From contig NZ_JAANNP010000005.1 in assembly GCF_011250635.1 (NCBI RefSeq), positions 55,876-119,875 on the forward strand: DNA of 64,000 nucleotides. Reading direction: 5' to 3'. This stretch comes from Motilibacter deserti (lineage in GTDB: Bacteria; Actinomycetota; Actinomycetes; Motilibacterales; Motilibacteraceae). Each line of letters starts with the position of its first letter. Within the stretch, counting starts at the first letter, position 1. Positions 5,166 to 64,000 of this stretch are shown here, piece after piece. The position numbers were made by a program, and so were the translations under genes. A model generated the notes under the pieces. The model did no database searches. It saw nothing but the letters and a program-made list of their open reading frames with translations, and was not told the DNA's origin.

Positions 5166-5184
5166 GTCGTGCCCGGGAGGCCTC

Positions 5185-8097
<2,913 letters not shown>

Positions 8098-8108
8098 CGG
8101 GAGCGGCG

Positions 8109-8140: not shown

Positions 8141-8224
8141 GGCTGACCCGGCGGGAAAGCCCCGCCTCTGCACGAGCGCGATGCGGCCTGGGCCGCGGGA
8201 CCGGCGCGGACGCCGGCCCGTGGC

Positions 8225-8825: not shown

Positions 8826-8832
8826 TGCGTCC

Positions 8833-8838
8833 TAGTCT
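8833..8838 (+). promoter_or_regulatory. -10 element (TAGTCT) of the rsbQ-rsbP-STAS cassette
   Basis: TAGTCT ends 7 nt before GTG 8846 and there is no ribosome binding site, so a leaderless transcript is likely. Confidence 0.55.
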
Positions 8839-8845
8839 GTGCCTC

Positions 8846-11622: not shown

Positions 11623-11966
11623 CGATCCTCGGGCTGGCGGAGCCCGGGCCGGACGCGCCCCAAGTGCTCCACGCCTCCGGCGAGCTGGACGCCGCCACGG
11701 TGCCCGCGCTGCTCGAGCAGGTCCCGGACCTGCTGGCAGGCGCCTGCGGCGTCGTGCTCGACCTCAGGGACGTCACGTTCTTCGACAGCTCCGGCGTCCG
11801 CCTCGTGGACGTGGTGGCCCGGCAGTGCGCGCGCCGGGGAGTGCCCGTCGCGGCCGTGGCGCCGCCCGGGCACCTCGCGCGACGCGTGCTGGAGATGGTC
11901 GGGATGGCCGAGAGCTTCGTGGTGGACGGCATCGACGAGGCGTTCACGGCCGTGCGCCGGGGATGA
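11619..11966 (+). CDS. STAS-domain anti-sigma-factor antagonist (RsbV/SpoIIAA-like)
   Basis: 115 residues forming a single STAS domain. The phosphorylation motif FFDSSGVRLV is intact; Ser57 (after Asp56) is the predicted phosphoserine. It is the natural substrate for the phosphatase and HATPase domains of the upstream gene, giving a partner switch in one operon. ATGA overlap with rsbP. No sigma factor gene adjoins, so the final target is elsewhere or absent. Confidence 0.9.
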   Translation: MTILGLAEPGPDAPQVLHASGELDAATVPALLEQVPDLLAGACGVVLDLRDVTFFDSSGVRLVDVVARQCARRGVPVAAVAPPGHLARRVLEMVGMAESFVVDGIDEAFTAVRRG

Positions 11967-12048
11967 GCCCGGCTCCCGAAGGAGGAAGCGCTTTCCCCTG
12001 AGCCGCACTTCCTCCGCGGTCCGCCCGGAGAGGGCAGCACGACACGGC

Positions 12049-12828
12049 CTAGGCGTAGCCGCGCACGTAGTCGACGACGAGCTGCGGGACGGCTCCGGCG
12101 TCGTGCCCGTCGGAGCGGTCGGGGAAGTCGAAGACGGCGAGCATCAGCTGCATCGGGTACGTCGGCGGCGCGGCGCAGGCGCGCACCGCGACGCCGTCGA
12201 CGAGGAACTCGACCCGATCGCTCGTCCAGTCCACGGCATAGGTGTGGAAGTCGGCGACGTCGATCGGCAGCTGCGTGACCGCGAAGTCCTCGGGCACATG
12301 TGGGTCGCGGAACGAGTGCAGCCCGCACCCGACGCCGGCTCCCGAGCCGGGGACGACCGCGTCGCCGAAGACTTCTGCGACACAGATCTCCGCGCTCCGC
12401 GCGGGCACGTCCTCCAAGCCCACGAGCCACCACGCGACCATCGAGCGGGGTGTGATGTCCGCGCGGGCACGCATCTCCAGGTAGCCCGAGCTCGGAGTCC
12501 AGCCCCTGAACTCCGGCTGCTCCTGCTTCACGGTCAGCCCGGGCCGGAACGGCTGCTGGCCGCGTGTGGACCCGACGGGCCCGGACAGGCTCGCCGATTG
12601 CACGCCGGAGACGCGCAGGGGAGGGGAGTGCTCGTCGGCGCACCACAGCCCCTGGTCGGCCGGGATCGACAGCCGGAGGCAGGAGTCCTGGACCTCGTAC
12701 GTCGCGGCGCTCGTCGCGCGCGAGCTCCACTCCGGCAGGTAGTGCGGCAGCCACCGCGAGCGGTCGAGGCGCGGGGCGTCGAACTCCTCGGCGAAGACCA
12801 GCCGCGACCGGCCGGGCGGCGGGGTCAC
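12049..12828 (-). CDS. GH16-like glycoside hydrolase/lectin-fold protein, altered active site
   Basis: 259 residues with the GH16 jelly-roll pattern: an N-terminal FAEEFDAPRLDRSRW, SGYLEMRARADI, then the active-site strand and DFHTYAVDWTSDRVEFLVDG, ending MQLMLAVFDFP. The catalytic motif ExDxxE reads EICVAE, so Glu147 and Glu152 remain but the central Asp is Cys149. No signal peptide is visible. The GTG start overlaps the stop of the MscS gene (GTGA). A beta-glucan-active enzyme is the family default, but the substitution makes binding or altered chemistry possible. Confidence 0.8.
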   Translation of the reverse strand: MTPPPGRSRLVFAEEFDAPRLDRSRWLPHYLPEWSSRATSAATYEVQDSCLRLSIPADQGLWCADEHSPPLRVSGVQSASLSGPVGSTRGQQPFRPGLTVKQEQPEFRGWTPSSGYLEMRARADITPRSMVAWWLVGLEDVPARSAEICVAEVFGDAVVPGSGAGVGCGLHSFRDPHVPEDFAVTQLPIDVADFHTYAVDWTSDRVEFLVDGVAVRACAAPPTYPMQLMLAVFDFPDRSDGHDAGAVPQLVVDYVRGYA

Positions 12829-13952
12829 GGTGCCTTCTCGAGACGGTCGGGCGTATCGGCTTCGGCCGCCGCGGTGCCGGAAGGGGCCACGAGGAACGGC
12901 TGCCGGTCACCGCCGGGCTCGACCTCCGCACGTGTGCGGGGCAGGGCGTACGGATGGTTCTGCTGCAGCCAGGTCAGCAGCTGCTCGCGGATGTCGCACC
13001 GCAGGTCCCAGGCACTGGGCGCGTCGTGGGCGGAGGCGAGGACGCGCACGACCATGGTGGTCGGAGTCGTGTCGACGACCTGCAGCACCCAGTCGCGCCG
13101 GTCCCAGAGGGGCGACCCCTCGATCACCTCGCGCGCGTGGTGGCGCAGCGCGTCGAGCGGGGTCGCGAAGTCCAGGTGCAGCTGGACCGCCCCCAGCACC
13201 CGCGACTCCTGCCGCGTCCAGTTCTGGAACGGGTTGCTCGTGAACCAGCTCGTCGGCAGCACGAGGCGGCGCTCGTCCCAGAGGTGCACGACGACGTAGG
13301 TCAGCGTCAGCTCCTCGATGCGCCCCCACTCGCCCTCGACGACCACGACGTCGTCGATGCGCAGCGCGTCGGTGAACGCGAGCTGGATCCCGGCGAAGAC
13401 GTTGCCCAGCGTCGCCTGCGCGGCGAAGCCTGCGATCGCACCGGCGATGCCCGCCGAGGCGAGCAGCGAGGCGCCCACGGTGCGCAGGGTGTCGAAGGAC
13501 ATGAGGATCGCCCCGACGCCGACGGCCGTGACGACCGCCGCGGTGATGCGGCGCACGATCAGGATCTGGGTGCGCATCTTGCGGACGCGCCGGTTGTCGG
13601 TGACGTCGATGCGCAGCTTGGTGAAGGCGGCGTCCTGCGCGACGAAGAGGGCCTTGACGACGAACCACGAGACCGCGGCGATGGCCGCGATGACGAGCGC
13701 GTGGCGGACCACCCGCTGCACGTCGTCGTCGGGGAGCGGCTCGGCGTCGACCGCCTGCAGCAGGGAGAACGTGACGAGCGTCGACACCCAGGCGCGGTGG
13801 CACGCCTCGTGGACCCGCCGCGCGAAGCCCCGGTAGCGCTGGGGCGGCAGCAGCGTCACGGCCTTTCCGGACAGCCAGCCGGCGAACGCGGCGGCGACCC
13901 CGGTCGCGGCGAGCACGAGCAGGGTCCGCCAGAGGCTCTCGCCCTCGGACAA
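12825..13952 (-). CDS. MscS-family mechanosensitive channel
   Basis: 375 residues from a TTG start preceded by GGAGGA, about 5 nt upstream. Transmembrane segments lie near residues 7-28, 80-100 and 125-150; the pore helix is GIAGAIAGFAAQATLGNVFAGIQLAF, followed by the MscS beta domain (DALRIDDVVVVEGEWGRIEEL, LPTSWFTSNPFQNWTR). Such channels release osmolytes on membrane tension. The frame stays open upstream to 14111, but that overlaps the neighbouring HAD gene and lacks homology. Coupled to the GH16-like gene. Confidence 0.9.
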   Translation of the reverse strand: MSEGESLWRTLLVLAATGVAAAFAGWLSGKAVTLLPPQRYRGFARRVHEACHRAWVSTLVTFSLLQAVDAEPLPDDDVQRVVRHALVIAAIAAVSWFVVKALFVAQDAAFTKLRIDVTDNRRVRKMRTQILIVRRITAAVVTAVGVGAILMSFDTLRTVGASLLASAGIAGAIAGFAAQATLGNVFAGIQLAFTDALRIDDVVVVEGEWGRIEELTLTYVVVHLWDERRLVLPTSWFTSNPFQNWTRQESRVLGAVQLHLDFATPLDALRHHAREVIEGSPLWDRRDWVLQVVDTTPTTMVVRVLASAHDAPSAWDLRCDIREQLLTWLQQNHPYALPRTRAEVEPGGDRQPFLVAPSGTAAAEADTPDRLEKAP

Positions 13953-14026
13953 GCCTTCCTCCTTCCTCGCCTGCCGAGCGGCAGCAGCGGTACGACGAGC
14001 GCCGTGCCCGTCGGGGTGGGTCGGGG

Positions 14027-14548
14027 TCAGGTGCGCCCGTCGTGCTCCTGGGCCTCGAAGAGCGTCGCCTGCGCCCCCTGGTCGGTGCCCGCGCCCGGCT
14101 CGGTCATCCACGTCGCGTGCAGGACGGGGAAGCCGGCGGCGCGGACCGCGGCGACGACAGCTGCGTCGTCGTCGACGACCATCCCGACCGGCGCGTCCCG
14201 GGCCAGCTCGCGCAGCCGCTCGACCTTGACCAGGCGCGCCGGGCGGCGGTCACGGGTGGGCCGCAGCAGCAGCCGGCCGGGGGGAAGCCCGTGGCGCCGG
14301 AGCCAGTCCTCGGTGGCTGTTCGGCAGGAGACCGGCCGCCCGCTGAGGTAGACGACCTCGTGCTCGGCGGCGAGGGTCGCGGCTACGGCAGCCCCTTCGG
14401 CGAGCAGCTCGTCCTCCGGTGCCGCTGCGAAGAAGGCGGGCCAGTCCTTCGGCCGCTGGTCCAGGTGATGGAGCCGATGGCGTACGTCGGCCAGCACGCC
14501 GTCGATGTCGAGGACCGCATAGGGCCGCGCCGGGCGTTCGGTCGCCAT
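14027..14548 (-). CDS. HAD-fold phosphatase (polynucleotide kinase 3'-phosphatase-like)
   Basis: 173 residues. HAD motif I is YAVLDIDGVLADVRHRLHHL (nucleophile and acid Asp in DIDG); motif II is VVYLSGRP; KVERLRELA supplies motif III and VDDDAAVVAAVRAAG motif IV. The closest recognisable type is the phosphatase domain found in T4 Pnkp-like enzymes, often next to DNA-repair genes; here it follows sbcDC. ATG 14548 sits 7 nt after a TAGCGT -10 element, so a leaderless message is likely. Confidence 0.83.
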   Translation of the reverse strand: MATERPARPYAVLDIDGVLADVRHRLHHLDQRPKDWPAFFAAAPEDELLAEGAAVAATLAAEHEVVYLSGRPVSCRTATEDWLRRHGLPPGRLLLRPTRDRRPARLVKVERLRELARDAPVGMVVDDDAAVVAAVRAAGFPVLHATWMTEPGAGTDQGAQATLFEAQEHDGRT

Positions 14549-14558
14549 GCGCCCAACG

Positions 14559-18128
<3,570 letters not shown>

Positions 18129-18129
18129 G

Positions 18130-19281
18130 TCAGGCCTCCGCCTCCGCGCGGCGGGCCGCCTCGAGCGCCCGCTGCAGCAGGGCGGCCTCGTCCGCGGTCG
18201 CGGCAGCGCCGCGTACGTGCTCCACGAAGCCGCCGACGAGGGCCAGGTCGTCCAGCCCGCGCACGCGCTCGGAGTAGGACGTGACCGTGGCCCGGACGCT
18301 GCGCTCCGGCTCGTGGCCCAGCACGAGCACGTGGGGGAAGCGCGCGCGCAACCGCTCCATCGGCTCCCGCGGCCGGGCGGCGTCGGTCAGCGTCACCTGC
18401 AGGTAGGACTGCTCGTGCCGGGCCAGCACCGGGTCGGTGAGCAGCGCGTCGAGGCTGCCGCGCAGGCGGGCGAGCGGCCGCGGCACGGGGCAGGGCACGA
18501 GCTGCACCCCGCTGAGCCCGCCGGGGCCGAGGTCGACGAGGGCCACGGACTTGACGTGGCCCGCCTCGGAGAAGGAGTAGGCGAGCGGGGAGCCGCTGTA
18601 GCGCGCCCACGGCGAGACCGTCTGCGCCCCGTGCAGGTGGCCGAGCGCGGCGTAGTCGACGCCGGCGAACGTCTCGACCGGCACGACGCTCACCCCGCCG
18701 ACGGTGATGTCCCGCTCGCTCTCGGACGGCACCCCGCCGGCGACGAAGGCGTGCGCGGCCACCACGGACCGGGTGCCGGCCCCGCGACGGGCGAGATCGG
18801 CCCGTACGCGGCGCATGGCCTCCCCGAGCACGCTCGCGTGGCTGCGCGTCGCGCAGCCGAGCCGAGCCGCGACGGCGTCGGGCTCGAGGTAGGGCAGCGG
18901 GTAGAACGCGACCGGCCCATGGGCGTCCTCGACCAGCACCGGCTCGTCGATGCGCCCCGGGTCCGTGCGCAGGTGCACACCGGCGAGGTCCAGCAGCCGG
19001 GAGCCGAAGCCGAGCCGGGAGGCGGAGTCGTGGTTGCCGCTCAGCAGCAGCACGCGGGCGCCGGTCGCGGCCAGCCGGGCGAGCGCCTCGTCGAAGAGCT
19101 GCACGGCGTCCACCGACGGCAGCGCGCGGTCGTAGACGTCGCCGGCGACGAGCACCACGTCCACCCGCTCGGACCCGGCCAGGTCGACCAGGAAGTCGAC
19201 GAATGCGGCCTGCGGCCCGAGCATCCCCTCGCGGTGGAAGGAGCGGCCCAGATGCCAGTCGGAGGTGTGGAGCACTCGCAC
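18130..19281 (-). CDS. sbcD: exonuclease subunit SbcD (Mre11-like nuclease)
   Basis: 383 residues. Metallophosphoesterase motifs are present in order: HTSDWHLGR, AGDVYDRA, LSGNHDS, AHAFV and GHLHGAQ. The start is GTG 19281, which gives the standard N-terminus VRVLHTSDWHLG and lies 7 nt after a TACGGT -10 element; in-frame GTG/TTG codons up to 19311 are alternatives. Forms the nuclease of the SbcCD complex encoded with sbcC in one operon. Confidence 0.95.
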   Translation of the reverse strand: MRVLHTSDWHLGRSFHREGMLGPQAAFVDFLVDLAGSERVDVVLVAGDVYDRALPSVDAVQLFDEALARLAATGARVLLLSGNHDSASRLGFGSRLLDLAGVHLRTDPGRIDEPVLVEDAHGPVAFYPLPYLEPDAVAARLGCATRSHASVLGEAMRRVRADLARRGAGTRSVVAAHAFVAGGVPSESERDITVGGVSVVPVETFAGVDYAALGHLHGAQTVSPWARYSGSPLAYSFSEAGHVKSVALVDLGPGGLSGVQLVPCPVPRPLARLRGSLDALLTDPVLARHEQSYLQVTLTDAARPREPMERLRARFPHVLVLGHEPERSVRATVTSYSERVRGLDDLALVGGFVEHVRGAAATADEAALLQRALEAARRAEAEA

Positions 19282-19288
19282 GCCCCGC

Positions 19289-19294
19289 ACCGTA
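19289..19294 (-). promoter_or_regulatory. -10 element (TACGGT) of sbcDC
   Basis: TACGGT on the minus strand ends 7 nt before GTG 19281; no ribosome binding site is present, suggesting a leaderless sbcDC message. Confidence 0.5.
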
Positions 19295-19376
19295 GGAGGC
19301 CCCACTGACAAGACCCGGGAGGCGCGCGGCAGCCGGTGGGGGATTGCCTCATCTGCCGCACGGGGATCGGGGGGTC

Positions 19377-20852
19377 ATGGGCAAACGTGTCGAGCGGCAG
19401 GAGTTCACCCGCGAGGACCGCCGCCGCTACCGGCAGAAGGCCCATCGCTGCCTCGACGTCCTCGGCCTCATGCTGGCCGAGGACCGGTTCGACCGCGAGC
19501 GCCCGATGACCGGGCTCGAGGTGGAGCTCAACCTCGTCAACGGGCAGGGGCTGCCGGCGCTGCGCAACACCGAGGTCCTGGACCGGATCGCCGACCCGGC
19601 CTTCCAGACCGAGCTCGGCAGGTTCAACATCGAGGTCAACGTCGAGCCGCGCCGGCTCGACGGCGACAAGCTCGCCGGCCTCGAGCGCGAGCTGCGCGGG
19701 GCGCTGGACGCGGCCGAGGCGCGCGCCCGCGAGGCCGGCGCGGGCATCGTCATGGTCGGGATCCTGCCGACGTTGCGCGAGGAGGACCTCGGCCGCGGAG
19801 CGCTGTCGGAGGACCCGCGCTACGGGCTGCTCGACGAGCAGATCCTCGCCGCTCGAGGCGAGGACATCCCGCTGGAGATCTCCGGCCCGGAGGTGCTGTC
19901 GACGCTCGCGGCGACGATCGCCCCGGAGGCCGCGTGCACGAGCGTCCAGCTCCACCAGCAGGTGCGGCCGGAGCGCTTCGCGGCGCACTGGAACGCGGCG
20001 CAGGTCCTCGCGGGGGTCCAGCTCGCCATGGGGGCCAACTCGCCCTACCTGCTGGGCCGCGAGCTCTGGCGTGAGACGCGCATCCCGCTCTTCACGCAGG
20101 CGACGGACATGCGCAGCGAGGAGCTCAAGGCCCAGGGCGTACGCCCGCGGGTGTGGTTCGGCGAGCGGTGGATCACGTCGGCGCTGGACCTGTTCGAGGA
20201 GAACCTGCGCTACTTCCCGGCGCTGCTGCCCCTGTGCGACGAGGAGGACCCCGTCGCCGTCGCGGAGGAGGGACGGGCGCCGAAGCTCTCGGAGCTGGCC
20301 CTGCACAACGGCACGGTCTACCGGTGGAACCGGCCGATCTACGACACCGTCGGCGGTGTCGCCCACCTGCGCATCGAGAACCGCGTGCTGCCCGCGGGGC
20401 CGACGGTCGTCGATGTGCTCGCGAACGGCGCGTTCTACTACGGGTGCCTGCGCTCGCTCGTCGAGGCGCACCGCCCGCTGTGGACGCGGATGCCGTTCCG
20501 CGTCGCCGAGGAGAACTTCCTCGCGGCGGCGCGCCACGGCATGGGCGCGTCCTTCACCTGGCCCGAGGCGGGGCGCATCGCCGCGCCCGACCTCGTCCTG
20601 CGCCACCTGCTCCCGCTGGCCCACGAGGGGCTGGAGAGCGCCGGGGTCGACGCCGACGTACGCGACCGGCTCCTGGGCGTCATCGAGGGGCGTTGCATCG
20701 CCCGCCGCAACGGCGCGACGTGGCAGGTGCAGCAGTGCGCGCACCTCGAGCGCTCCGGCTGCGACAGGGGCACTGCGCTTCGGCTGTTGACCCAGCGCTA
20801 CGTCGAGCTGATGCACTCGAACCTCCCCGTGCACCAGTGGCCGGTGGGCTGA
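19377..20852 (+). CDS. glutamate-cysteine ligase-like protein (GCS2 superfamily)
   Basis: 491 residues from ATG 19377 behind a G-rich ribosome binding site. GCS2 features: MTGLEVELNLVNGQG near the N-terminus, FNIEVNVEPRRL, TSVQLHQQV, and HLRIENRVLPAGPTVVD. This is the long actinomycete subgroup, commonly labelled glutamate-cysteine ligase; real substrates are not established from sequence, and ergothioneine-type or other amide/peptide ligation are possibilities. Alone in its transcription unit, divergent from sbcDC. A shorter YbdK-type relative lies at 33220. Confidence 0.83.
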   Translation: MGKRVERQEFTREDRRRYRQKAHRCLDVLGLMLAEDRFDRERPMTGLEVELNLVNGQGLPALRNTEVLDRIADPAFQTELGRFNIEVNVEPRRLDGDKLAGLERELRGALDAAEARAREAGAGIVMVGILPTLREEDLGRGALSEDPRYGLLDEQILAARGEDIPLEISGPEVLSTLAATIAPEAACTSVQLHQQVRPERFAAHWNAAQVLAGVQLAMGANSPYLLGRELWRETRIPLFTQATDMRSEELKAQGVRPRVWFGERWITSALDLFEENLRYFPALLPLCDEEDPVAVAEEGRAPKLSELALHNGTVYRWNRPIYDTVGGVAHLRIENRVLPAGPTVVDVLANGAFYYGCLRSLVEAHRPLWTRMPFRVAEENFLAAARHGMGASFTWPEAGRIAAPDLVLRHLLPLAHEGLESAGVDADVRDRLLGVIEGRCIARRNGATWQVQQCAHLERSGCDRGTALRLLTQRYVELMHSNLPVHQWPVG

Positions 20853-20949
20853 GCGCTCCGCCACCGACGGGCGGCCCGGCGCCGGCAGGAGGTGTGCGCG
20901 AGGATGGGCCGGGCACCGGGCAGGTGCCTGCGACGTCGAGGGGGAGCCG

Positions 20950-21549
20950 GTGCGCGAGACGGGGCTGTCGGGGATCGAGCGGTTCCTGATCCTGCAGCGG
21001 GTGACGCTGATGGTGAACCGGTACGAGGTCCGTGCCGCGGGGTCCGACGGCACCCCGGGCGCGCTGCTGGCGCTGGCCGAGCAGAAGCGCCTGGCGTTCA
21101 AGGAGGAGGTCACCTTCTTCGCGGACGAGGCACGCCGGGTGCCGGTGTTCTCGTTCAAGGCGCGCTCGCGGATGGACCTCGGCGCGACGTACGACGTGCG
21201 CGACGCAGCGGGCACCCCGATCGGGCTGTTCCGCAAGGACTTCGGCAAGTCGTTGCTGCGCTCGACCTGGCACCTGGAGGCCGCGGGCGTCGCCGCGACC
21301 GGGACCGAGCGGAGCGCCGCCGTGGCGATCGGGCGCCGGGCGTGGGAGCTGCTCCCCGTCGTGGAGAGCCTGCCGTCGCCGTTCCGCTTCCACTTCGACT
21401 TCCGGGACGCTGCCGGCGACGTGGTGCTGAGCTCGCAGCGGATGCGCTCGTTGCGGGACCGCTACGAGGTCACCGTCCCCGGCGCGCGGGTGGACGGCCG
21501 GGTCGCTGCGGCGATGTGCGTGGCCTTGGACGCGCTGCAGTCGCGCTGA
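20950..21549 (+). CDS. LURP-one-related family protein
   Basis: 199 residues with the tubby-like LURP-one beta-barrel pattern: FLILQRVTLMVNRYEV, repeated strands AEQKRLAFKEEVTFFADEA and FSFKARSRMDLGATYDV, and WHLEAAG. The family binds lipids or acts as scramblase-like proteins in eukaryotes; bacterial roles are unknown. GTG start with GGGGGAG 5 nt upstream. No partner is apparent; the next gene is convergent. Confidence 0.82.
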   Translation: MRETGLSGIERFLILQRVTLMVNRYEVRAAGSDGTPGALLALAEQKRLAFKEEVTFFADEARRVPVFSFKARSRMDLGATYDVRDAAGTPIGLFRKDFGKSLLRSTWHLEAAGVAATGTERSAAVAIGRRAWELLPVVESLPSPFRFHFDFRDAAGDVVLSSQRMRSLRDRYEVTVPGARVDGRVAAAMCVALDALQSR

Positions 21550-21559
21550 CCCGAGGGGG

Positions 21560-22324
21560 CTAGTCGGCCGGGCGCCGGTGCACGTCGCGCGCCGTCGCCT
21601 GGTCCCGGGGGAACAGGTCGAGACGCGCCACCGACACGTGCGCCGGCCGAGTCACGGCCCACGTGACGACGTCGGCGACGTCCTCACCAGTGAGCGGCGT
21701 CATGCCGTCGTAGACCGCGTCGGCGCGGTCGACGTCGCCGGAGAACCGCACGGTGGAGAACTCGGTGTTGACCAGCCCGGGAGCGATCTCGATGACGCGG
21801 ACCGGCTCGCCCAGGAGCTCGAGCCGCACGGTGTCGACGACGGCGGCGGCCGCGTGCTTGGCGCCGGTGTAGCCGCCTCCGCCGACGTAGGTCTGGTGGC
21901 CCGCGACGCTCGTGATGACGACGATGCGCCCGTCGCCGGAGGCGCGCAGCGCCGGCAGGAACGCGTTGATGGTGCGCGGCAGGCTCAGGACGTTGGCTTC
22001 GTACATCCACCGCCACTTCTCCTCGTCCCACTTCTCCACGGGGTCGAGACCGAGCGCACCACCTGCGTTGCACACCAGGACCTCGCAGGACGTGACCCCG
22101 GCGGCGAACTCCTCGACGGAGGCCGAGTCGGTGACGTCGACGCGGCGCGTCCGAACGTCCACGCCGGGAATCCCGGCCGCCACCTCGGCGAGCCGGTCGG
22201 CGCGCCGCGCCCCGAGCAGGAGCGGGAAGCCGGCGGCCCCGAGCGCCCGGGCCGTCGCGGCGCCGATGCCGCTGCTCGCACCGGTGATGACTGCCGTGCC
22301 GCGCGTCGCCGCAGATGTGGTCAC
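21560..22324 (-). CDS. short-chain dehydrogenase/reductase
   Basis: 254 residues, classical SDR. TGASSGIG cofactor motif at 14-21, ARRAD favouring NADP(H), CNAGG, the active-site Ser in ITSVAG, and YTGAKH (YxxxK). It most resembles the YdfG/serine-dehydrogenase-like group of broad-specificity oxidoreductases; substrate unknown. GTG start 8 nt after a TACGGT -10. Confidence 0.87.
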   Translation of the reverse strand: MTTSAATRGTAVITGASSGIGAATARALGAAGFPLLLGARRADRLAEVAAGIPGVDVRTRRVDVTDSASVEEFAAGVTSCEVLVCNAGGALGLDPVEKWDEEKWRWMYEANVLSLPRTINAFLPALRASGDGRIVVITSVAGHQTYVGGGGYTGAKHAAAAVVDTVRLELLGEPVRVIEIAPGLVNTEFSTVRFSGDVDRADAVYDGMTPLTGEDVADVVTWAVTRPAHVSVARLDLFPRDQATARDVHRRPAD

Positions 22325-22332
22325 GGGGCAGA

Positions 22333-22338
22333 ACCGTA
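22333..22338 (-). promoter_or_regulatory. -10 element (TACGGT) of the SDR gene
   Basis: Minus-strand TACGGT ends 8 nt before GTG 22324; consistent with a leaderless transcript. Confidence 0.45.
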
Positions 22339-22349
22339 CGGCCCGCAGG

Positions 22350-23405
22350 TCAGAGCAGCGTCAGCTGGGCGGGCTCGACGGCCGGCTGCGGCCGGGACAG
22401 CCGTGCCCGCTCGTGGCCGGTGCGCCAGCGCGTGGTGGCCCGCCGTCCGATGCCGTGCTTGTCGGCCAGCTCGCGGACCTGCCGCGCGATGAGCTCCTGG
22501 TAGCCCTTCGGCGCGTATGACCCGGCGGCGTAGAGCGCCTGGTAGCGGGCGACGAGCTCGGGGTGCTCGCGCTCGAGCCAGGCCATCCACCACTCGCGCG
22601 CGCCGGGCCGCAGATGGAGCACGATCGGGGTGAGGTACGCCGCCCCCGCCGCCGCGGCGGCGGCGACCGTCTCCTCGAGCTGGGCGGGGGAGTCGGTGAG
22701 CCCGGGCAGGATCGGCGCCATCAGCACGCCGCACCGGATGCCCGCCTCGTTGAGGGCCGCGACGGTCTCGAGCCGGCGCATCGGCGCGGGCGTCCCGGGC
22801 TCGACCCCGCGCCAGACCGTCTCGTCGACGAACCCGACCGAGAGCGCGGTCGAGACGTCCGTGCGGTCTGCGGCGTCGGTGAGCAGGTCGAGGTCGCGGG
22901 CGATGAGCACGCCCTTGGTGAGGATCGAGAAGGGGTTGTTCGCGTCCCGCAGGGCGGAGATGACGCCGCGCATCAGGCGGTAGCGGCCCTCGACGCGCTG
23001 GTAGGGGTCGGTGTTGGTGCCGAGCGCGACGTGCTCGCCCTTCCACCGCCGCCCCGCGAGCTCGCGGCGCAGCACCTGGGCCACGTTGACCTTGACGAGG
23101 ACCTTGGCGTCGAAGTCGGCGCCGGAGTCCAGGTCGAGGTATTCGTGGGTCTTCCGGGCGAAGCAGTAGCGGCAGGCGTGCGAGCAGCCGCGGTAGGGGT
23201 TGACCGTCCACGAGAACGGCACCTGCGACGCGGCCGGCACCCGGTTGAGCGCCGAGCGGGCCTGCACCTCGAAGAAGGTCATCCCGCGGAACGCCGGGGT
23301 GTCGAACGTGCGGGTGACGGCGCCACGGGGGAGAAGCGGGAGCGCGCCGTCGGCGAGCCCGGCCCCCTCTTCGTCCGCGTCGAGGCGCAGGTTGTCCCAT
23401 CGCAC
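22350..23405 (-). CDS. Rv2578c-family radical SAM protein (SplB-like)
   Basis: 351 residues. The 4Fe-4S motif CxxxCxYC is CSHACRYCF, inside NPYRGCSHACRYCFAR, followed by LGTNTDPYQ and ALSVGFVDE; this is the pattern of the Rv2578c/spore-photoproduct-lyase-like family. Reaction unknown. Start GTG 23405 gives the typical VRWDNLRL N-terminus; the in-frame ATG 23423 would lie inside the LexA-like box. The frame stays open further upstream by GC bias only. Probably damage-inducible. Confidence 0.87.
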   Translation of the reverse strand: MRWDNLRLDADEEGAGLADGALPLLPRGAVTRTFDTPAFRGMTFFEVQARSALNRVPAASQVPFSWTVNPYRGCSHACRYCFARKTHEYLDLDSGADFDAKVLVKVNVAQVLRRELAGRRWKGEHVALGTNTDPYQRVEGRYRLMRGVISALRDANNPFSILTKGVLIARDLDLLTDAADRTDVSTALSVGFVDETVWRGVEPGTPAPMRRLETVAALNEAGIRCGVLMAPILPGLTDSPAQLEETVAAAAAAGAAYLTPIVLHLRPGAREWWMAWLEREHPELVARYQALYAAGSYAPKGYQELIARQVRELADKHGIGRRATTRWRTGHERARLSRPQPAVEPAQLTLL

Positions 23406-23413
23406 CGCATCAG

Positions 23414-23429
23414 TAGAACACATGTTCGA
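23414..23429 (-). promoter_or_regulatory. LexA/SOS-box-like operator
   Basis: On the minus strand TCGAACATGTGTTCTA matches the actinobacterial SOS box TCGAAC-N4-GTTCGA at 11 of 12 defined positions. It ends 9 nt before the GTG of the radical SAM gene, where it would overlap a promoter. Confidence 0.75.
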
Positions 23430-23594
23430 CTGAGGGCGCTGGGGCGGCGGGTCGGTTGCTGTGCGAGCAGGGGGTGCGCCAGGGTTGGCGGGTGAGGCAG
23501 CGCGAGCGAGGGCCGGTCCGCGAGCCGGCCGGGGAGCCCGGGTCGGCCCCGCCGCCCGCCCGCAGCGACGGTCGGCGGCGGTGACGGGCGAGCG

Positions 23595-24203
23595 ATGACC
23601 CGGAGCTTCCTGATCCTGCACGGGTGGCAGAACACCCGCCCGCCGGGGCACTGGCAGCGGTGGCTGGCCGAGCAGCTCGAGGCAGGTGGAGAGCGCGTCG
23701 CGTACCCGCAGCTGCCGGATCCCGATGAGCCACGGCTCGACGTCTGGACCGAGCACCTGCTCGCCGCCCTCGACACGCTGCCCGCGCAAGGCCGCACCGT
23801 CGTCTGCCACAGCCTCGCCTGCCTGCTCTGGCTGCACGCGGCCGCCCGGCCGTCGCCCGTGCCGCCGGTGGACCGGCTGCTGCTCGTCGCGCCCCCGTCG
23901 GGCGAGGTCCTGCGCCGGCACATCGAGGTGGCGGCGTTCGCCGGCCCCGCCGCCTCTGCGGCCGATGTCCGCGCCTCGGCCCTGAGCGAGGCCCGGCTGG
24001 TGGCGGCCGACGACGACCCCTACTGCCCGGCCGGCGCGGCCGGCGAGTACGCCCGCGCGCTCGAGCTCGAGCTCGACCTGCTGCCGGGCCAGGGCCACCT
24101 GAGCATGGACGAGGGCTACGGGCCCTGGCCCTCGGTGCTGCGGTGGTGCCTCGAGCCGGGGGTTCGCGTCGAGGCGCGGGCCGGGGCGATGCCGCCCGGC
24201 TGA
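23595..24203 (+). CDS. RBBP9/YdeN-type serine hydrolase
   Basis: 202 residues, small alpha/beta hydrolase. ILHGWQNT at the N-terminus, nucleophile elbow VVCHSLACLL (Ser near residue 76), acid in ADDDPYCP, and His in GQGHLSM. The family has esterase-like activity on uncertain natural substrates. The ATG lies in a G-rich context (GACGGGCGAGCG) without a strong ribosome binding site. Divergent from the radical SAM gene, sharing its 190-bp upstream region. Confidence 0.83.
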   Translation: MTRSFLILHGWQNTRPPGHWQRWLAEQLEAGGERVAYPQLPDPDEPRLDVWTEHLLAALDTLPAQGRTVVCHSLACLLWLHAAARPSPVPPVDRLLLVAPPSGEVLRRHIEVAAFAGPAASAADVRASALSEARLVAADDDPYCPAGAAGEYARALELELDLLPGQGHLSMDEGYGPWPSVLRWCLEPGVRVEARAGAMPPG

Positions 24204-24413
24204 CGAGTCCGGCTCAACCAGGCGGCTCGGCTGCCGATGAAGAAGCCAAGCGGCCGGAAGGGCCCGGAGCGGACGCGCAGCGGCTCCGGCGCCGCGCCGG
24301 CGGTGGGTCTGCGCGGTTGATGTGAGTACGCCGGTCCCGGCCTTGCCCTCGAGGCGCCGGGGCCGGCGTCGCCATGCACGAGCCGCTCACGACGAGCAGG
24401 AGGGGAGCACCAC

Positions 24414-38343: not shown

Positions 38344-39273
38344 ATGCAGGGCAGCGTGCGGTGGTTCAACGCGGACAAGGGCTTCGGCTTCATCACCCCT
38401 GACGACGGCGGCGAGGACGTCTTCGTCCACTTCTCCGCCATCGCCGACGAAGGAGGGTTCCGCACCCTGGACGAGGGCCAGCGCGTCGAGTTCGACGCGG
38501 CCCCCACCGACCGCGGCCTGCACGCCTCGAACGTCCGCCCCCAGGGCGGCCGGCCCGCCGGCCGCGGGGACACCCGGCGCGACGTCCGGGACGAGCCGCG
38601 GCGGGACACGCGCGACTACCGCGATCAGCCGCGACGTGACGGACGGGACAGCCGGGAGAGCGGCCGGGGCTTCCGGGACCAGCCGCGTTCGGACTTCGGG
38701 CGCGGACGGGACCGCGGCTCCTCCGGCGGCGGGGGCCGAGGCGGCGTCGTCACCGGGACCGTGCACTGGTTCGACGGCGAGAAGGGCTACGGCTTCATCA
38801 CCCCCGACGACGTCTTCGTCCACTTCTCGGCGATCCGCAGCGGCGGGTTCCGCTCGCTCGACGAGGGCCAGCGCGTGGAGTTCGTCGTGACCGAGGGCGA
38901 GCGCGGCCTGCAGGCCGAGGAGGTCAGCGTCTTGGACGAGCGGCCGGCCCGCCGCGAGCGGCGTGAGGACGACCGCTGGGGCCGTGACCGTGACGCGGCG
39001 CCTCGCACCCGGGAGCCGCGGCGCCCGGTCGAGCGCAACCCCGCCAACGACGTCCCGGGCGGCCTCGTGCAGGGCACGGTGCAGTGGTTCAACGGGCAGA
39101 AGGGGTTCGGCTTCATCACCCCGGACGACGGGGGAGAGGACGTGTTCGTGCACTTCTCCGAGATCGACGACGCGTCCGGATTCCGGTCCCTGGAGGAAGG
39201 GCAGCGCGTCGAGTTCGGGCGCACGTCCGGCGAGCGGGGGCTGCAGGCCGTCGACGTCCGCCCCGTGGGCTGA
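38344..39273 (+). CDS. triple cold-shock-domain protein with Arg/Asp/Gly-rich linkers
   Basis: 309 residues with three cold-shock domains. CSD1 spans 1-66 ([15 protein letters not shown]...VFVHF), CSD2 136-197, CSD3 241-309. RNP1 (KGFGFI/KGYGFI) and RNP2 (VFVHF) are intact in all three. Linkers 67-135 and 198-240 are basic, disordered and rich in RD/RG. CSD2 lacks the GGED residues between RNP1 and RNP2 found in CSD1 and CSD3. Ordinary bacterial Csp proteins have one domain. A role in binding several RNA or single-stranded DNA segments is inferred. Confidence 0.92.
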
Positions 39274-39314
39274 TCGGCCGCGAGGGCCCCTGGCATGCCG
39301 GCGGGCCGCAGCGA

Positions 39315-46944: not shown

Positions 46945-47457
46945 GTGGTGTTCCAAAGAACTCGGCTGTCTCTGGTCGTGCCTGCCGTCTTGCTCGCGCT
47001 CGCAGGCTGCACCGGGGGAGACTCCGCACCTTCCTCGGACGCTGCTTCGGTTCCCTCGGCATCACCAACGTCCGAGAGGCTTGTCTCGCCTGCGCCGGAG
47101 GGCCGCCCGGTTGAGACTCTTCCGCCACTCGAGCAGGGCCTGTCGGACACTCGACCGGTCCTGGACCTGGCTGGACGCAGCGGGTCGCGGACCTACCGGG
47201 TCCGCGCTTCTGATCCGACCCGAGAGCTCGCCGCTCGAATTGCATGTGTAGGGGCCGGCGGCAGCGTCAAGCTGGAGTTAGAAAGTTTCGATCAGCTCGC
47301 GACGTCCGAGGGCCAGTGCGACGGGACGCCGTCCGACTACGTTTCCTTGGACGCGCGACAGGCGTCGGTCACGGTGACGACGACTGATGGTGTGCGGTGG
47401 TCGCTACTTGTCGAAGATCCCGAGACCAGCCTGTTCGAGGACACCGACACTCGATAA
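46945..47457 (+). CDS. putative lipoprotein of unknown function
   Basis: 170 residues. Signal peptide with lipobox LAGC (Cys about residue 22), a Ser/Pro/Ala-rich spacer, then a beta-rich domain (SRTYRVRASDPTRELAARIACVGAGGSVKLELESF...VSLDARQASVTVTTTDGVRWSLLVEDP). Predicted to be membrane-anchored outside the cell. Start GTG 46945 lacks a strong ribosome binding site. GC is lower than the flanking core genome. Not recognised. Confidence 0.72.
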   Translation: MVFQRTRLSLVVPAVLLALAGCTGGDSAPSSDAASVPSASPTSERLVSPAPEGRPVETLPPLEQGLSDTRPVLDLAGRSGSRTYRVRASDPTRELAARIACVGAGGSVKLELESFDQLATSEGQCDGTPSDYVSLDARQASVTVTTTDGVRWSLLVEDPETSLFEDTDTR

Positions 47458-47854: not shown

Positions 47855-48195
47855 GTGTCGCACGACTCTCTCATCCTCAGACCTAGCGAGAACCAGAAGA
47901 GGCGGTCTCGATCACGCGCTGCTCTCGGCCTCAACGCGTGGCGCGCCGGTGCCGTTGCCGTCGTTGTTGGAGTTCTGGCCGTCCTCTCGTGGTGGGTTCT
48001 GGCACTGAAGCTGGGCGAGGCCAACCTCGTGGCCTACGACGGGGATGCTCCCGTCTATGACGTCTTCCACGTCAGCAAGTCGATCGTGGCGTGGGCGGCG
48101 GTCGCCGTCACGAGCACGTTGTGTCTGTCGCGCTTGCGCTGTTCGCAGCCATCGTTCGCGCGATCGTGGCGCTCGACTATGCGCGCGACGCGTGA
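47855..48195 (+). pseudogene. frameshifted small membrane protein gene
   Basis: From ATG or GTG near 47855 the frame codes a basic N-terminus (ENQKRRSRSR), a transmembrane helix (AVAVVVGVLAVLSWWVLAL) and SKSIVAWAAVAVTST. After about 48118 this frame turns into Cys/Arg/Ser-rich junk running to 48256, whereas the -1 frame continues sensibly as a second helix (SVALALFAAIVRAIVALDYARDA) and stops at 48193-48195. A one-base loss near 48111-48121 would explain it: real mutation or sequencing error. Not recognised as a family. Confidence 0.55.
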
Positions 48196-48256
48196 ATGTC
48201 GGGATGAACGAGGAGGCGAATCCGACGGCTCTGAGCTAGTGTTTGGGCTGGCGTAG

Positions 48257-48602
48257 TGTCTTGAAGGAGAAGCGGAACTCGGCCTCTCTGTAGGTGCGAG
48301 CGGGGTGCCCCATCGAAGGCCACCCCGCCTCACTCGCATCGGATGCACGAGTTGGTCATCAGATGCAAGTCGCTGCAGCGACATCTGGAGGCACCTCAGC
48401 GAGAGTCCGTGCGCCCTCAGGGCAGGGGAGCTACACGGGACGGGCCATCGTGCACCTGACGCCAGACAGGCTCCGTCCAGGTTGACATAATCTCTCTTAT
48501 CGGCGGGGGCTCGGGGGCTTACCCACCCCTGGCACGCAGGCCCGTGACACAACCAGGCGCGCACGTCGCTCCAGATCGGACCCGTCATCCCGCTCCAGTC
48601 GA
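48257..48602. other. gene-free stretch carrying the dif-like site
   Basis: 346 bp with no supported coding sequence; the notable content is the Xer-like site at 48480-48507. Confidence 0.55.
48480..48507 (-). other. dif/Xer-recombination-like site
   Basis: Read on the minus strand the 28 bp are an 11-bp XerC-like arm CCCGCCGATAA, a 6-bp centre GAGAGA, and an 11-bp XerD-like arm TTATGTCAACC. The arm ends ATAA...TTATG, the arm lengths, and the 6-bp centre all fit bacterial dif (E. coli arms GGTGCGCATAA and TTATGTTAAAT). It lies in non-coding, decayed sequence. It may be the chromosomal dif or a dif-like site of an integrated element. Confidence 0.6.
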
Positions 48603-49364
48603 CTACTTGAGCACCTCGTACTCGACCCGCAAGGTCGCAGTGTCTGGCCCGAGGGCCTTCGGCGTAGGCAGCGGGTCGATCAACTGGCCCGTCCACTTCC
48701 CTTCGACGAGCAGGCCTCGAAGGGGGTCAGTCACGCGTTCGCTGGGCAGCATGTCAGTGGTTGCGCTGTTGTCGTTCGCGTCGACGAGGCGTACTCTGAA
48801 TCCGTAGTGAACAGTGCGCCGTTCCCCCGAGATGCTGACGGTTTGAGAGACAGTGTTTTCCACGGAACGTATGACACCCTCGTATCGGAACGTGCTTCCC
48901 TCGTACGTACCGTCACTCTGTCGGAACAGGGTGACCCCCGTTGACGGAAGAGGAGGAGGGGGAGCAGGGCGCTTGTAGACATTCAGTGCGATACCGTCCT
49001 CGTTCTTCGCGAGAATCGTCATCACGCGTTCCCCTCCGCCATTCGGCTCCCCGCGAACCCATTCACCGTGGGGATTCCAGCCGATCCGGTCGAACCGCAC
49101 CTTGTCGTCCGCATAGTCATCGTGTTGCCATAGAAAGAACCTGCCGCTCTCCGTGCCGTCGTCGCCCGATCCAATCAGTTCAACGTGGTGACTGCGGAAG
49201 TCCGCTCGCTTGGTGGCCCAAGGCACCCAGAAGTAGACGTCCTTCTCGGCGTACGGCGGGATGAGCCCTCGATCGCCTTTCGTATCACTAGGCGTCTCAT
49301 GGTTGATGACTCGCCAGGTGAACTGAGTCTCGTTGTACACCCGGTGCACCGCTGTCACCTTCAT
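48603..49364 (-). CDS. hypothetical protein, two beta-rich halves
   Basis: 253 residues, not recognised. Residues 1-130 are rich in aromatic and charged residues (YNETQFTWRVINHETPS, DVYFWVPWATKRADFRSHHVELIG, FFLWQHDDYADDKVRFDRIGWN). A PAPPPPLPS linker follows, then a second beta-rich half with alternating hydrophobics (TFRYEGVIRSVENTVSQTVSISG). No signal peptide or membrane segment. GGGGAGG lies 5 nt before ATG 49364. Lower GC and unusual composition suggest acquisition from outside. Confidence 0.72.
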   Translation of the reverse strand: MKVTAVHRVYNETQFTWRVINHETPSDTKGDRGLIPPYAEKDVYFWVPWATKRADFRSHHVELIGSGDDGTESGRFFLWQHDDYADDKVRFDRIGWNPHGEWVRGEPNGGGERVMTILAKNEDGIALNVYKRPAPPPPLPSTGVTLFRQSDGTYEGSTFRYEGVIRSVENTVSQTVSISGERRTVHYGFRVRLVDANDNSATTDMLPSERVTDPLRGLLVEGKWTGQLIDPLPTPKALGPDTATLRVEYEVLK

Positions 49365-60591: not shown

Positions 60592-61230
60592 TCAAGGGCG
60601 CTGGCCGGGCGGCGTCGTGGGTGCCGGCACCCCCTGAGCGAGGCCGAGACTGCGCAGCTGCATCGCCGCCAGAGCCCGGGCGGCCGACGGATCGCCGTCC
60701 CGCCACCCGCGCACGGTCCCGGCGGGCAGGGCGGCCAGGTCCGCGAGGGGGCGCTGCGCCAGGGCGCGGACCGCGAGGACCTCGAGGCCGTCGGGCCCGA
60801 GCGTCAGACGACGGGCGACGGCCGCCTCGCGCACCCAGCCGATCCGGCGCGGCAGCCAACGGGCCAGGACCGCTGCGGCCGGGAGCAGCAGGACCAGGAC
60901 GGCGAGCAGGAGCGCGAGACCGCTGACTGCGTCCTGCTGAGTACGCCCCGCCTCTTGCAGGGCCGACCCCGCCCCGCTCGCCCCCGTCAGCGCATCGCGC
61001 AGCCGGTCACCCACCAGCGGCAGGCCGCCGGCGGAGTCCCCGGCGGAGGTGAGCCTGCGCGTCAGATCGCTGCCGGCCTGCTCGATCTCCCGCCCCGGCG
61101 CGCCGAGCCGCTCGACCTGCTGGTGGGTCTCGTACGCGACCCGGGCCCACAGCAGGATCCAGGCCAGGACGAGCGCGTCCCCGAGTGCCTGCCGGAGCCG
61201 GTGGGAAGGGTCGTCGGCATAGAGCTTCAT
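60592..61230 (-). CDS. membrane protein of unknown function
   Basis: 212 residues with two transmembrane segments, about 16-35 (LGDALVLAWILLWARVAY) and 105-130 (LALLLAVLVLLLPAAAVLARWL), separated by an external helical loop containing a GLPLVGDRLRDAL motif typical of this actinomycete family. The C-terminal 80 residues are cytoplasmic. Its ATG overlaps the candidate ATG of the divergent frameshifted gene by 2 bp, so one of the two starts may be wrong. Confidence 0.75.
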   Translation of the reverse strand: MKLYADDPSHRLRQALGDALVLAWILLWARVAYETHQQVERLGAPGREIEQAGSDLTRRLTSAGDSAGGLPLVGDRLRDALTGASGAGSALQEAGRTQQDAVSGLALLLAVLVLLLPAAAVLARWLPRRIGWVREAAVARRLTLGPDGLEVLAVRALAQRPLADLAALPAGTVRGWRDGDPSAARALAAMQLRSLGLAQGVPAPTTPPGQRP

Positions 61231-61596
61231 GGACGCACAGTTCCCGAACCAGGTCTCCTGCTACTCAGTACGGGCGACGAGAAGGAAGCCGTGGGCGCCG
61301 CTCGTCGTCGCCGTGGCGGTCGCCGGCACGGGGCTGGGGGTCTCGTCGGTCGCCGCGAACTCCGTGGGGACGGACGTCGAGGAGGCGCTCACCGGCAGCG
61401 CGACGGGCATCGTCAACACGGGGGCGCAGCTGGGCACCCCGCTGGGGTGGCCGCCGCCGTCCTTCTCGCAGCAGGGGGGCCGTACGGCCCGCTGTCCGGC
61501 ACCGCCGCCGCGTGGGCGGCCTGCGCGCTGGCCGGCGGGGCATGCGCGGCCTGCACGGCGGCGGGCGCGCGGCAGCCGATAGGTTCGCACCGGTGA
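61229..61596 (+). pseudogene. frameshifted small membrane protein gene upstream of lycopene cyclase
   Basis: The first frame (61229-61446) codes a hydrophobic helix WAPLVVAVAVAGTGLGVSS and NTGAQLGTPLG with almost only G/C third positions. After the G run at 61444-61447 that frame degrades, and the -1 frame continues well (VAAAVLLAAGG, AAAWAACALAGGACAACTAAG) to a TGA at 61594. That TGA overlaps the GTG of the next gene. One missing G restores an about 121-residue protein with two or three helices. Mutation or homopolymer sequencing error. Function unknown. Confidence 0.6.
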
Positions 61597-62831
61597 CGAC
61601 GCAAAGCCCGGCGGTCCCGGGACGGGAGCGGGTCGACGTCCTCGTCGCCGGAGCAGGACCGGCGGGGCTCGCCGCGGCGGCGGCGTGTGCGCGCGAGGGG
61701 CTGCAGGTCATCGTCGTCGATCCGCTGCACGCTCCGTGGCGGCCCACCTACTCCCTCTGGCACGACGAGGCGGAGGCGGCGGCGTCGGCGTTGGGCCTCG
61801 GGACCGCCACGACGATCAGCTCGGCGTTCGACCGCACCCTCGTGCGCACCGCACGGTCCGAGCTGACGCTGGCCCGGCGCTACGCCGTGCTGGACAACAC
61901 CGCTGCCCGGCAGGCGCTGCTCGACGCCGCGACCCGCCGCGGCGCGCAGCTCGTCACCGACCGGCTCGTCGCCGTCTCGCCGGACGGGACCGGCCGCCTC
62001 GCCTCCGGCCGCCGGATCGACGCCGCGGTGGTCCTCGACGCGACCGGGCCCAGGCCACGTCGCGGTGCGGCCGGCCCGGCGCAGCGGGCCTGGGGCGAGC
62101 TGGTCGAGGGCGCCGACGCACTGGTGGCAAAAGGCGAAGCCCTTTTCATGGACTGGGCTACGCCGAAGCGCGTTTCAGCCGACTTCCCTTGGTTCCTCTA
62201 CGCGCTCGACCGCGGCGACGGCTCGACGCTGCTGGAGGCCACCTCGCTCGCGGCGGCCCCGCCCGTCCCGCTGCCCGCGTTGCGCGCGGCGCTGCACCAA
62301 CTGCTGGCCCGGCACGCCTTGCGCCCGGTCGGGCCGGCCGAGCGCGTCTCGATCCCGCTGGGAGACCCTCCCCCGCCCCGCCGCAGGACGACGGTCCCCC
62401 TCGGCGCGGCCGCAGGCCTGGTCCATCCTGCGACGGGCTACAGCGTCGCCGCGTCGCTGCTGCTGGCGACCCCGCTCGCCGGGGCCGTGGCCGCCGCCGT
62501 GCAGGCCGGGGACGCTGCCGGAGCGCGGCGCGCGGCGGAGCGGACGACGTGGCCGACCTCCCGCCGTCGGGCTTGGCCGCTGCTGCGGCTGGGGCTCGAC
62601 GTGCTGCTGGGGCTGGACGCGGACGGGCTCGACGCGTTCTTCGCGGCCTTCTTCACCCTCCCCGAGCACACCTGGGCGGGCTACGCGGCGGCCGACCCGC
62701 ACCCCACCGCGGTGACGGCGGCGATGCGCAGCACGTTCATCGCGCTCCCGTGGCGGCTGCGGCGGGACGTGCTCGCCGCGTGCGCCACGCCGCCGGGCGC
62801 GCGGCTGCTCGTGCGCGCGGTCACCGGGTAG
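61593..62831 (+). CDS. crtL: lycopene cyclase, CrtL type
   Basis: 412 residues, FAD/NAD-dependent. Dinucleotide motif VLVAGAGPAGLAAA (residues 15-28), YSLWHDE, the AQRAWGELVEG and FMDW segments, FPWFLYALDRGDGSTLLEATSLA, and AAAGLVHPATGYSVA together match the plant/cyanobacterial-type lycopene beta/epsilon cyclase family. It would close lycopene ends to form beta- or related rings in the membrane. No other carotenoid gene is in the window. GTG start is coupled to the upstream frameshifted gene (GTGA). Confidence 0.87.
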   Translation: MTTQSPAVPGRERVDVLVAGAGPAGLAAAAACAREGLQVIVVDPLHAPWRPTYSLWHDEAEAAASALGLGTATTISSAFDRTLVRTARSELTLARRYAVLDNTAARQALLDAATRRGAQLVTDRLVAVSPDGTGRLASGRRIDAAVVLDATGPRPRRGAAGPAQRAWGELVEGADALVAKGEALFMDWATPKRVSADFPWFLYALDRGDGSTLLEATSLAAAPPVPLPALRAALHQLLARHALRPVGPAERVSIPLGDPPPPRRRTTVPLGAAAGLVHPATGYSVAASLLLATPLAGAVAAAVQAGDAAGARRAAERTTWPTSRRRAWPLLRLGLDVLLGLDADGLDAFFAAFFTLPEHTWAGYAAADPHPTAVTAAMRSTFIALPWRLRRDVLAACATPPGARLLVRAVTG

Positions 62832-62974
62832 CACGTGCAGGCGCCCTGGGCGGCCGGCCCGGGCGCGCGCAGCGTGGGGGAAGCGGGCAACGACGGACAG
62901 CGGCGCGGGTCGCGGCAGTGCGGTTCGTCACGCAGACGCGTCGAGAGACGTCCCGTGGGGCACCCTACATAACA

Positions 62975-63002
62975 GGGAATCGGTTCCGACGGTGATGCGT
63001 TG
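62975..63002 (+). promoter_or_regulatory. sigma-R (SigR/SigH-type) promoter of rbpA
   Basis: GGGAAT (62975-62980), exactly 18 nt, then GTTG (62999-63002): the consensus of thiol-oxidative-stress sigma factors of the SigR/SigH group. rbpA is a known member of that regulon in Streptomyces. The start would fall near 63009, giving a leader of about 46 nt. Confidence 0.85.
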
Positions 63003-63054
63003 GATCAGGTGCTGGGGAGAGTCCCGGTCCCCTATGTGAGCGAGGAGGCATCCG

Positions 63055-63411
63055 ATGGCTGAGCGAGCGCTACGCGGCTCGCGTCTCGGCGCGCAGAGCT
63101 ACGAGTCGGACACGGGCGTGGACGCCGCCCCCCGACAGCGCGTGGAGTACGACTGCGCGGCAGGACACCGGACGTCCGTCCCGTTCTCCACCGAGGCCGA
63201 GGTCCCACTGGTGTGGGAGTGTCGGGTCTGCGGCCAGGAGGCGCTGCAGGTCGACGCCTCCCGCCCCGAGCCGAAGCGGGCCAAGCCCCCGCGGACGCAC
63301 TGGGACATGCTGATGGAGCGCCGGACCGTGGCCGAGCTCGAGGAGCTGCTCGCAGAGCGGCTGGAGCTGCTGCGGGCGCGGCGCGGCGAGACGACGCGCA
63401 AGAGCGCCTGA
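63055..63411 (+). CDS. rbpA: RNA polymerase-binding protein RbpA
   Basis: 118 residues, full length. MAERALRGSRLGAQSYESDTGVD, the zinc-ribbon-like core with C...H and CRVCG, and the C-terminal sigma-interaction domain PRTHWDMLMERRTVAELEELLAERLELLR are all present. RbpA binds the RNA polymerase/sigma-A holoenzyme and stabilises open complexes. GAGGAGG lies 7 nt before the ATG. Paired with fxsA (convergent), as commonly in actinomycetes. Confidence 0.96.
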   Translation: MAERALRGSRLGAQSYESDTGVDAAPRQRVEYDCAAGHRTSVPFSTEAEVPLVWECRVCGQEALQVDASRPEPKRAKPPRTHWDMLMERRTVAELEELLAERLELLRARRGETTRKSA

Positions 63412-63428
63412 CCTGAGCTGACAGGAGG

Positions 63429-63457
63429 AGGGCCCCGGGGCGACGCCCCGGGGCCCT
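63429..63457. terminator. terminator after rbpA
   Basis: A stem of 12-13 bp (63429-63441 with 63445-63457) with a 3-nt loop, followed by TTCT, 18 nt past the rbpA stop. Confidence 0.8.
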
Positions 63458-63522
63458 TCTGCGTGCGCGGGCCGCTGCGGGCACCCACCGGCCCAGGCGC
63501 CTCGGCCCACGCAGCGTCGCCG

Positions 63523-64000
63523 CTACCGCTCCTTCGCGGGGCCGTCGTCCGGGTCGACGACCTCGCCCTCGATCACCCGGCCCGGACCGGCCGCCCCGCC
63601 GCCCCGCCGCGCTCCGGGCCAGCCCGGCGGCACGGGCCCCGGCGGTGCCGAGCCGGGCGGCGCGGCCCCCGGCGGCCACACGCCGCCACCGGCGGCCGCG
63701 GCGCGCAACGCGGCGGGCGAGAGCCCGAGCCGGCGCGCCACTCGGCGGGTGAGCAGCAGGACGAACGCCGACCGGGCGAGCGCTCGCGTCGGCGGGAAGA
63801 GCAGCAGCAGCCCGACGACATCGCTGAGGAAGCCGGGCACGGACAGCAGCCCTGCGCCGAGCAGCACGAGCGCAGCGTCGGCGAGCTCCCGGCCGGGCAG
63901 CTGGCCGCCGGCCATCGACCCACGCAGCGCGCTCCAGGCGCGTACCCCTTCCCGCCGCAGCAGCCACAGCCCGAGCAGCGACGTCGCCAGCAGCAGGAGG
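63523..64000 (-). CDS. fxsA: FxsA family membrane protein (5' end outside window)
   Basis: The frame continues to the end of the window with no stop (LLLLATSLLGLWLLRREGVRAWSALRGS upstream of the internal Met at 63915), so the start lies beyond base 64000. ELADAALVLLGAGLLSVPGFLSDVVGLLLLFPPTR is the FxsA signature (two membrane helices around PGFxSD). The tail is Gly/Pro-rich and ends VIEGEVVDPDD. In E. coli FxsA relieves phage T7 exclusion by F; the general role is unknown. Confidence 0.9.
   Translation of the reverse strand, partial: LLLLATSLLGLWLLRREGVRAWSALRGSMAGGQLPGRELADAALVLLGAGLLSVPGFLSDVVGLLLLFPPTRALARSAFVLLLTRRVARRLGLSPAALRAAAAGGGVWPPGAAPPGSAPPGPVPPGWPGARRGGGAAGPGRVIEGEVVDPDDGPAKER

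Follow-up and report, generated by a model that had tools for sequence, protein, structure and literature searches.

For 66 of 66 Actinobacteria with a single chromosome, a XerCD dif site has been predicted (Kono et al. 2011, PMC3025954). Mobile elements that are comparable with the locus described here fall into several groups. Classical IMEXs exploit the XerC/XerD recombinases of their host and carry no recombinase of their own (PMC5357621, PMC9765430). Tn554-related transposons of actinobacteria encode a pair of catalytic tyrosine recombinases with one long member of 611-828 aa, and dif is not mentioned in their description (PMC3414803). Strand-biased circularizing elements (SEs) and GInts combine a tyrosine recombinase with accessory proteins and are described from Proteobacteria; the 6-bp spacer in the core of SE/Tn554 elements need not be identical at both ends (PMC10214605). 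The locus analysed here very probably consists of a chromosomal dif and, on its XerD side, the remnant of a mobile element (an operator, followed by the start codon of what was a recombinase gene), with insertion of the element and subsequent deletion of its recombinase as the most likely history. The element stump beside dif is what is new in this analysis.

The window, meaning the whole stretch of 64,000 nucleotides of Motilibacter deserti that was analysed (G000:C6:55876-119875), carries the site at C6:104355. Its parts are as follows:

48480-48507, minus strand: dif site, reading CCCGCCGATAA GAGAGA TTATGTCAACC.
48497-48507, minus strand: putative XerC-binding arm CCCGCCGATAA, aligning position for position with GCCGATAA of actinobacterial dif.
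48491-48496, minus strand: central hexamer GAGAGA, which is atypical, most centres being NNNACA.
48480-48490, minus strand: putative XerD-binding arm TTATGTCAACC, matching the actinobacterial dif arm TTATGTCAA.

The first-pass annotation had proposed a 28-bp dif layout here, in a stretch of lowered GC content. Its coordinates are borne out exactly, with a minus-strand dif orientation and a match to the motif of the phylum, and GC content is indeed about 0.64-0.68 around dif versus about 0.74 elsewhere. The sole open reading frame overlapping the dif stretch (48055-48696, minus strand) is unconvincing. The site resembles the XerCD dif of other actinobacteria in its 28-bp layout, its arms (GCCGATAA/TTATGTCAA), its single copy and its terminus position, as well as in the presence of genes for XerD, an XerC-like protein and FtsK-gamma in the host genome. 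It differs from the usual form by its centre, which is GAGAGA instead of NNNACA, and by the element stump carried on its XerD side. Each base of GAGAGA is found at its own place in other dif centres, and the centre in the relative G024 is GAGACA.

The XerD-side flank is most easily introduced through G003, another relative. In this genome, the sequence on the XerD side is common to both dif-like sites and continues as a 3.65-kb repeat contig, which encodes a 368-aa tyrosine recombinase (PF00589), a 114-aa Cro-type HTH protein and a 506-aa protein, named Zn-finger-like here because of the many Cys pairs towards its N-terminus. These three genes are referred to below as the trio. Overlaps between contig ends give the order C17 - dif (TGAACA) - repeat - C3 (50 kb) - dif' (CGTTGC) - repeat - C10, and a second recombinase, 62% identical, follows in C10 (contigs C17, C6, C3 and C10 of G003 are loci L167, L184, L168 and L183, respectively). 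This order can be read as tandem elements at dif or, alternatively, as a circular copy of the repeat plus C3. The 506-aa protein was also considered as a second recombinase, and this was rejected, as it gave no profile-profile match to the 368-aa recombinase and no Pfam, NCBIfam or PDB hit.

Three features of the window lie past the XerD arm of dif:

48328-48368, minus strand: operator-like double palindrome of 41 bp (GCATCTGATGA and GCATCCGATGC, spaced by 20 bp), upstream of where the lost recombinase gene began, 35 of 41 positions identical to the G003 element.
48306-48401, minus strand: alignable with the sequence that precedes the G003 recombinase gene and with its start codon (here GTG at 48323), the rest of the gene being absent.
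48452-48462, minus strand: GCGTCAGGTGC, possibly a decayed copy of the element-end palindrome, lying 17 bp beyond the XerD arm (the family palindrome GCATCNGATGC stands at +15).

Judged by its sequence, the XerD-side flank of dif represents the stump of an element from a family that encodes a tyrosine recombinase itself. The local score of the stump against the G003 repeat is 37.8, versus at most 31.4 for 1,989 pieces drawn at random from the same contig. The palindrome pair itself, at 48366-48336 and 111 bp from dif, occurs with its 20-bp spacing in only 3 of 98 genomes, namely the window genome, G003, where it lies in the terminus 5' of the second recombinase, and G023, where it is intergenic with no convincing trio gene near. 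The match of GCGTCAGGTGC to the family palindrome is weak (two mismatches and a 2-bp offset). In G001, which belongs to the same genus, TCATCTGATGG stands at exactly +15 past the XerD arm, and no recombinase of the trio family was found in that genome. A search of the window past the start codon found no remnant of the recombinase, of the HTH protein or of the Zn-finger-like protein. Two matches in the window had been considered as fossils of the element and were rejected: the recombinase match is the xerD gene of the host, and the Zn-finger match is weak (E 0.02) and far from the stump.

Among 118 actinobacterial dif loci picked by dif sequence alone, trio genes were found in 10 (L003, L010, L011, L035, L037, L068, L069, L094, L098 and L105), always directly beside dif and reading away from it, three of them on the XerC side. 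Seven of these loci have recombinases about 210-355 bp from dif, and the other three hold truncated remnants. Since the trio or its remnants stand beside 10 of the 118 loci, dif appears to be a repeated target of elements that encode a recombinase of their own; no report of the trio family at dif was found in the open-access papers searched. The family is not confined to dif, as its relatives are also present on 192 plasmid records and in 39 of the 395 genomes that represent the class, and many copies have no recognisable dif core upstream. In the core of a Paenarthrobacter plasmid copy, the XerC half is intact and the XerD half has diverged, which suggests that dif-like secondary sites may be used too. 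On the conjugative plasmid pCZY (L294, NZ_CP068014.1), the trio is accompanied by a dif-like core; the XerD half of this core has diverged (GCCGATAATGCAGATTCCGTCAG), and GCATCTGATGC follows at a short distance.

On 45 viral contigs (L249-L293), which are possibly Xer-dependent actinophages, an actinobacterial dif core was also observed, and its centres vary widely among them. A phage origin shared with the trio elements was considered and rejected, as none of these contigs encodes the trio in the stretch fetched.

It is unlikely that the site is an ordinary chromosomal dif whose flanking palindromes are accessory or regulatory DNA of the host, with no element stump at all. The absence of any trio gene body and the degenerate state of the palindrome at +17 are in keeping with such an explanation, but palindromes belonging to the host would have to be reconciled with their distribution: GCATCNGATGC, with at most one mismatch, follows the XerD arm at a distance of exactly 15 bp in 8 of the 151 dif places scanned, is absent from most dif sites, and is found at this distance mainly where the trio or its remnants occur. 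The pair with 20-bp spacing, moreover, directly precedes the recombinase gene in several unrelated copies from independent genomes, and the homology between the window and G003 extends into the start codon. These observations argue for the stump.

Under the preferred reading, of dif with an element remnant, an element of the trio family would have inserted at dif by means of its own recombinase, so that a usable dif was retained where the element ends, and the recombinase would later have been lost by deletion; the homology of the stump is the directly observed part of this history. The insertion may be placed in an ancestor of the genus, with most of the element deleted since. An open reading frame near dif (46945-47457) encodes a lipoprotein-like protein of 170 aa, 84% identical in G001. 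The homologue in G001 lies much nearer dif, and the gene may be cargo of the element or an old neighbour. Further away, self-comparison showed that 38345-39280 is self-similar, with internal matches of about 200 bp that are 71-80% identical.

The identification of 48480-48507 as the chromosomal dif of an actinobacterium, and of the window as spanning the terminus, is supported by its uniqueness, its conservation in relatives, its synteny with canonical dif sites and the position of the motif opposite dnaA in eight relatives. The pattern SNNGCCGATAA-N6-TTATGTCAA gave a single match at up to three mismatches in the window scan and none in 100 dinucleotide shuffles. In the whole genome (4,993,991 bases, or 4.99 Mb, in 269 contigs; 98.7% complete, not closed), exactly one match was obtained at this threshold, both for the 20-mer and for the arms-only pattern; the search for further copies that had been proposed thus yielded none beyond 48480-48507. 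Across the phylum, CGCCGATAA-N6-TTATGTCAAC matches at least 118 genome contigs, nearly all from Actinomycetota, with one site per stretch. The comparison with actinobacterial dif, also proposed earlier, came out in favour of the site, as its arms fit this phylum motif, which is found at up to two mismatches in 49 of 60 relatives (only a few for a reversed control pattern). In eight relatives with dif and dnaA on one long contig (G029, G047, G033, G041, G030, G007, G016 and G051), the distance between the two is 0.42-0.54 of the rounded genome size, and the motif therefore marks the point opposite the origin. A better dif elsewhere, together with a lack of conservation of this one, had been named as the outcome that would speak against the site; both were looked for, and neither was found.

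Extra dif-like sites with odd centres exist in relatives, at G004:C1:917256 (CTGTTC), G002:C14:3626 (TTTGTC) and G002:C4:50801 (TAATCC). The one in G004 is only 403 kb from dnaA, i.e., away from the terminus. As such odd-centred sites can be secondary, the synteny of the window dif was examined, and it defines the following region:

24221-61185, no strand: variable terminus region containing dif; the conserved blocks on either side (5095-24221 and 61185-64000) also flank the dif of relatives.

The canonical dif of G002 lies between orthologues of C6 61-77 kb and C6 119-143 kb, and that of G004 is flanked by two blocks with orthologues at C6 120 kb and C6 79 kb. In G003, contig C17 with dif continues into orthologues of C6 117-122 kb, while contig C10 on the other side, reached via contig overlaps, holds a block orthologous to C6 51-80 kb. 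In G001, where only one flanking block is readable, the dif contig continues into orthologues of C6 112-172 kb. Wherever gene order is readable, the window dif thus occupies the interval that holds the canonical dif in the four members of the family that were sampled. The claim that the window spans the chromosome terminus is upheld by this synteny and by the position of the motif opposite dnaA in the eight relatives, the genome of the organism itself being unclosed. The interval holding dif measures about 16 kb in G002, 37 kb in the window genome, 84 kb in G004 and an estimated 135 kb in G003, and this variation in size, from about 16 to about 135 kb, marks the terminus as an insertion hotspot.

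A secondary dif-like site, derived from a plasmid or an element, with the true dif hidden in an assembly gap, is very improbable. The unusual centre GAGAGA, the odd-centred secondary sites of G002, G003 and G004, and the draft state of the genome, with its 269 contigs, would all suit it; the near-completeness of this genome, in which no second site was found at up to three mismatches, and the syntenic position with the canonical dif of relatives speak against it. Chance resemblance of 28 bp to dif is refuted by the absence of matches in shuffled sequences and by the conserved, syntenic motif in relatives, and its probability is negligible.

The machinery required by a chromosomal dif is encoded in the host genome. 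The XerD gene, scoring over the cut-off, is on the same contig as dif, 84 kb distant; an XerC-like protein with the catalytic residues fits TIGR02224 best, at 303.6 bits (under the cut-off of 335.15 bits), and an FtsK-gamma domain is also encoded. By analogy with the known system, XerC would bind CCCGCCGATAA and XerD TTATGTCAACC, FtsK would join two sister copies of dif at division, and strand exchange across the 6-bp centre would convert a chromosome dimer to monomers. On the 172-kb contig, GC skew is weak, with a local peak at dif and no clean switch, the genome being in 269 contigs. The KOPS-like octamer GGGNAGGG is counted 22:9 left of dif and 9:9 right of it, a weak signal that is polar on the left only. 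These two results, the atypical centre, the odd-centred site of G004 away from the terminus and the failure to find any trio remnant beyond the start codon are the points that weigh against a chromosomal dif with an element stump.

Compared with described elements, the trio elements resemble IMEXs as mobile DNA ending in a dif mimic, inserted at dif and with a usable dif at the junction, and their position beside dif points to integration at dif. They differ from IMEXs by the predicted tyrosine recombinase (PF00589) that they encode beside dif and by palindromic sites outside the dif core. The earlier remark that such a place may be one where Xer-dependent mobile elements integrate is broadly right as to mobile elements, but not as to their class, since the family has its own tyrosine recombinase and is not Xer-dependent in the classical sense. 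With the Tn554-related transposons (PMC3414803), they share a recombinase of about 350-370 aa beside a small protein and a longer partner, and occurrence on actinobacterial plasmids and chromosomes. Compared by description, the long partner of the trio has 506 aa versus 611-828 aa and no detectable recombinase domain; only the 368-aa INT is recognisable as a recombinase, its partner giving no Pfam, NCBIfam or profile match. Like SEs and GInts, the trio elements have a tyrosine recombinase, accessory proteins and a core with a 6-bp spacer, whereas SEs and GInts have another gene set and are described from Proteobacteria, and the passages of PMC10214605 consulted show no dif targeting. If the spacer behaved as in SE/Tn554 elements, centres as unusual as GAGAGA and CGTTGC would be accounted for.

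On balance, the data favour a widespread actinobacterial trio family that would use dif as an attachment core, together with its own recombinase and palindromic accessory sites. Such elements would integrate next to dif and build up as tandem copies in the terminus region, and they may exchange the hexamer at the centre of dif. The window dif, with its GAGAGA centre and its stump, would be a site altered in this way. This raises the question of how the recombinase of an element shares dif with XerC/XerD without disturbing dimer resolution. For the organism itself, the dif site fixes the terminus of the host chromosome, and this position explains the variable, low-GC insertion zone around it.
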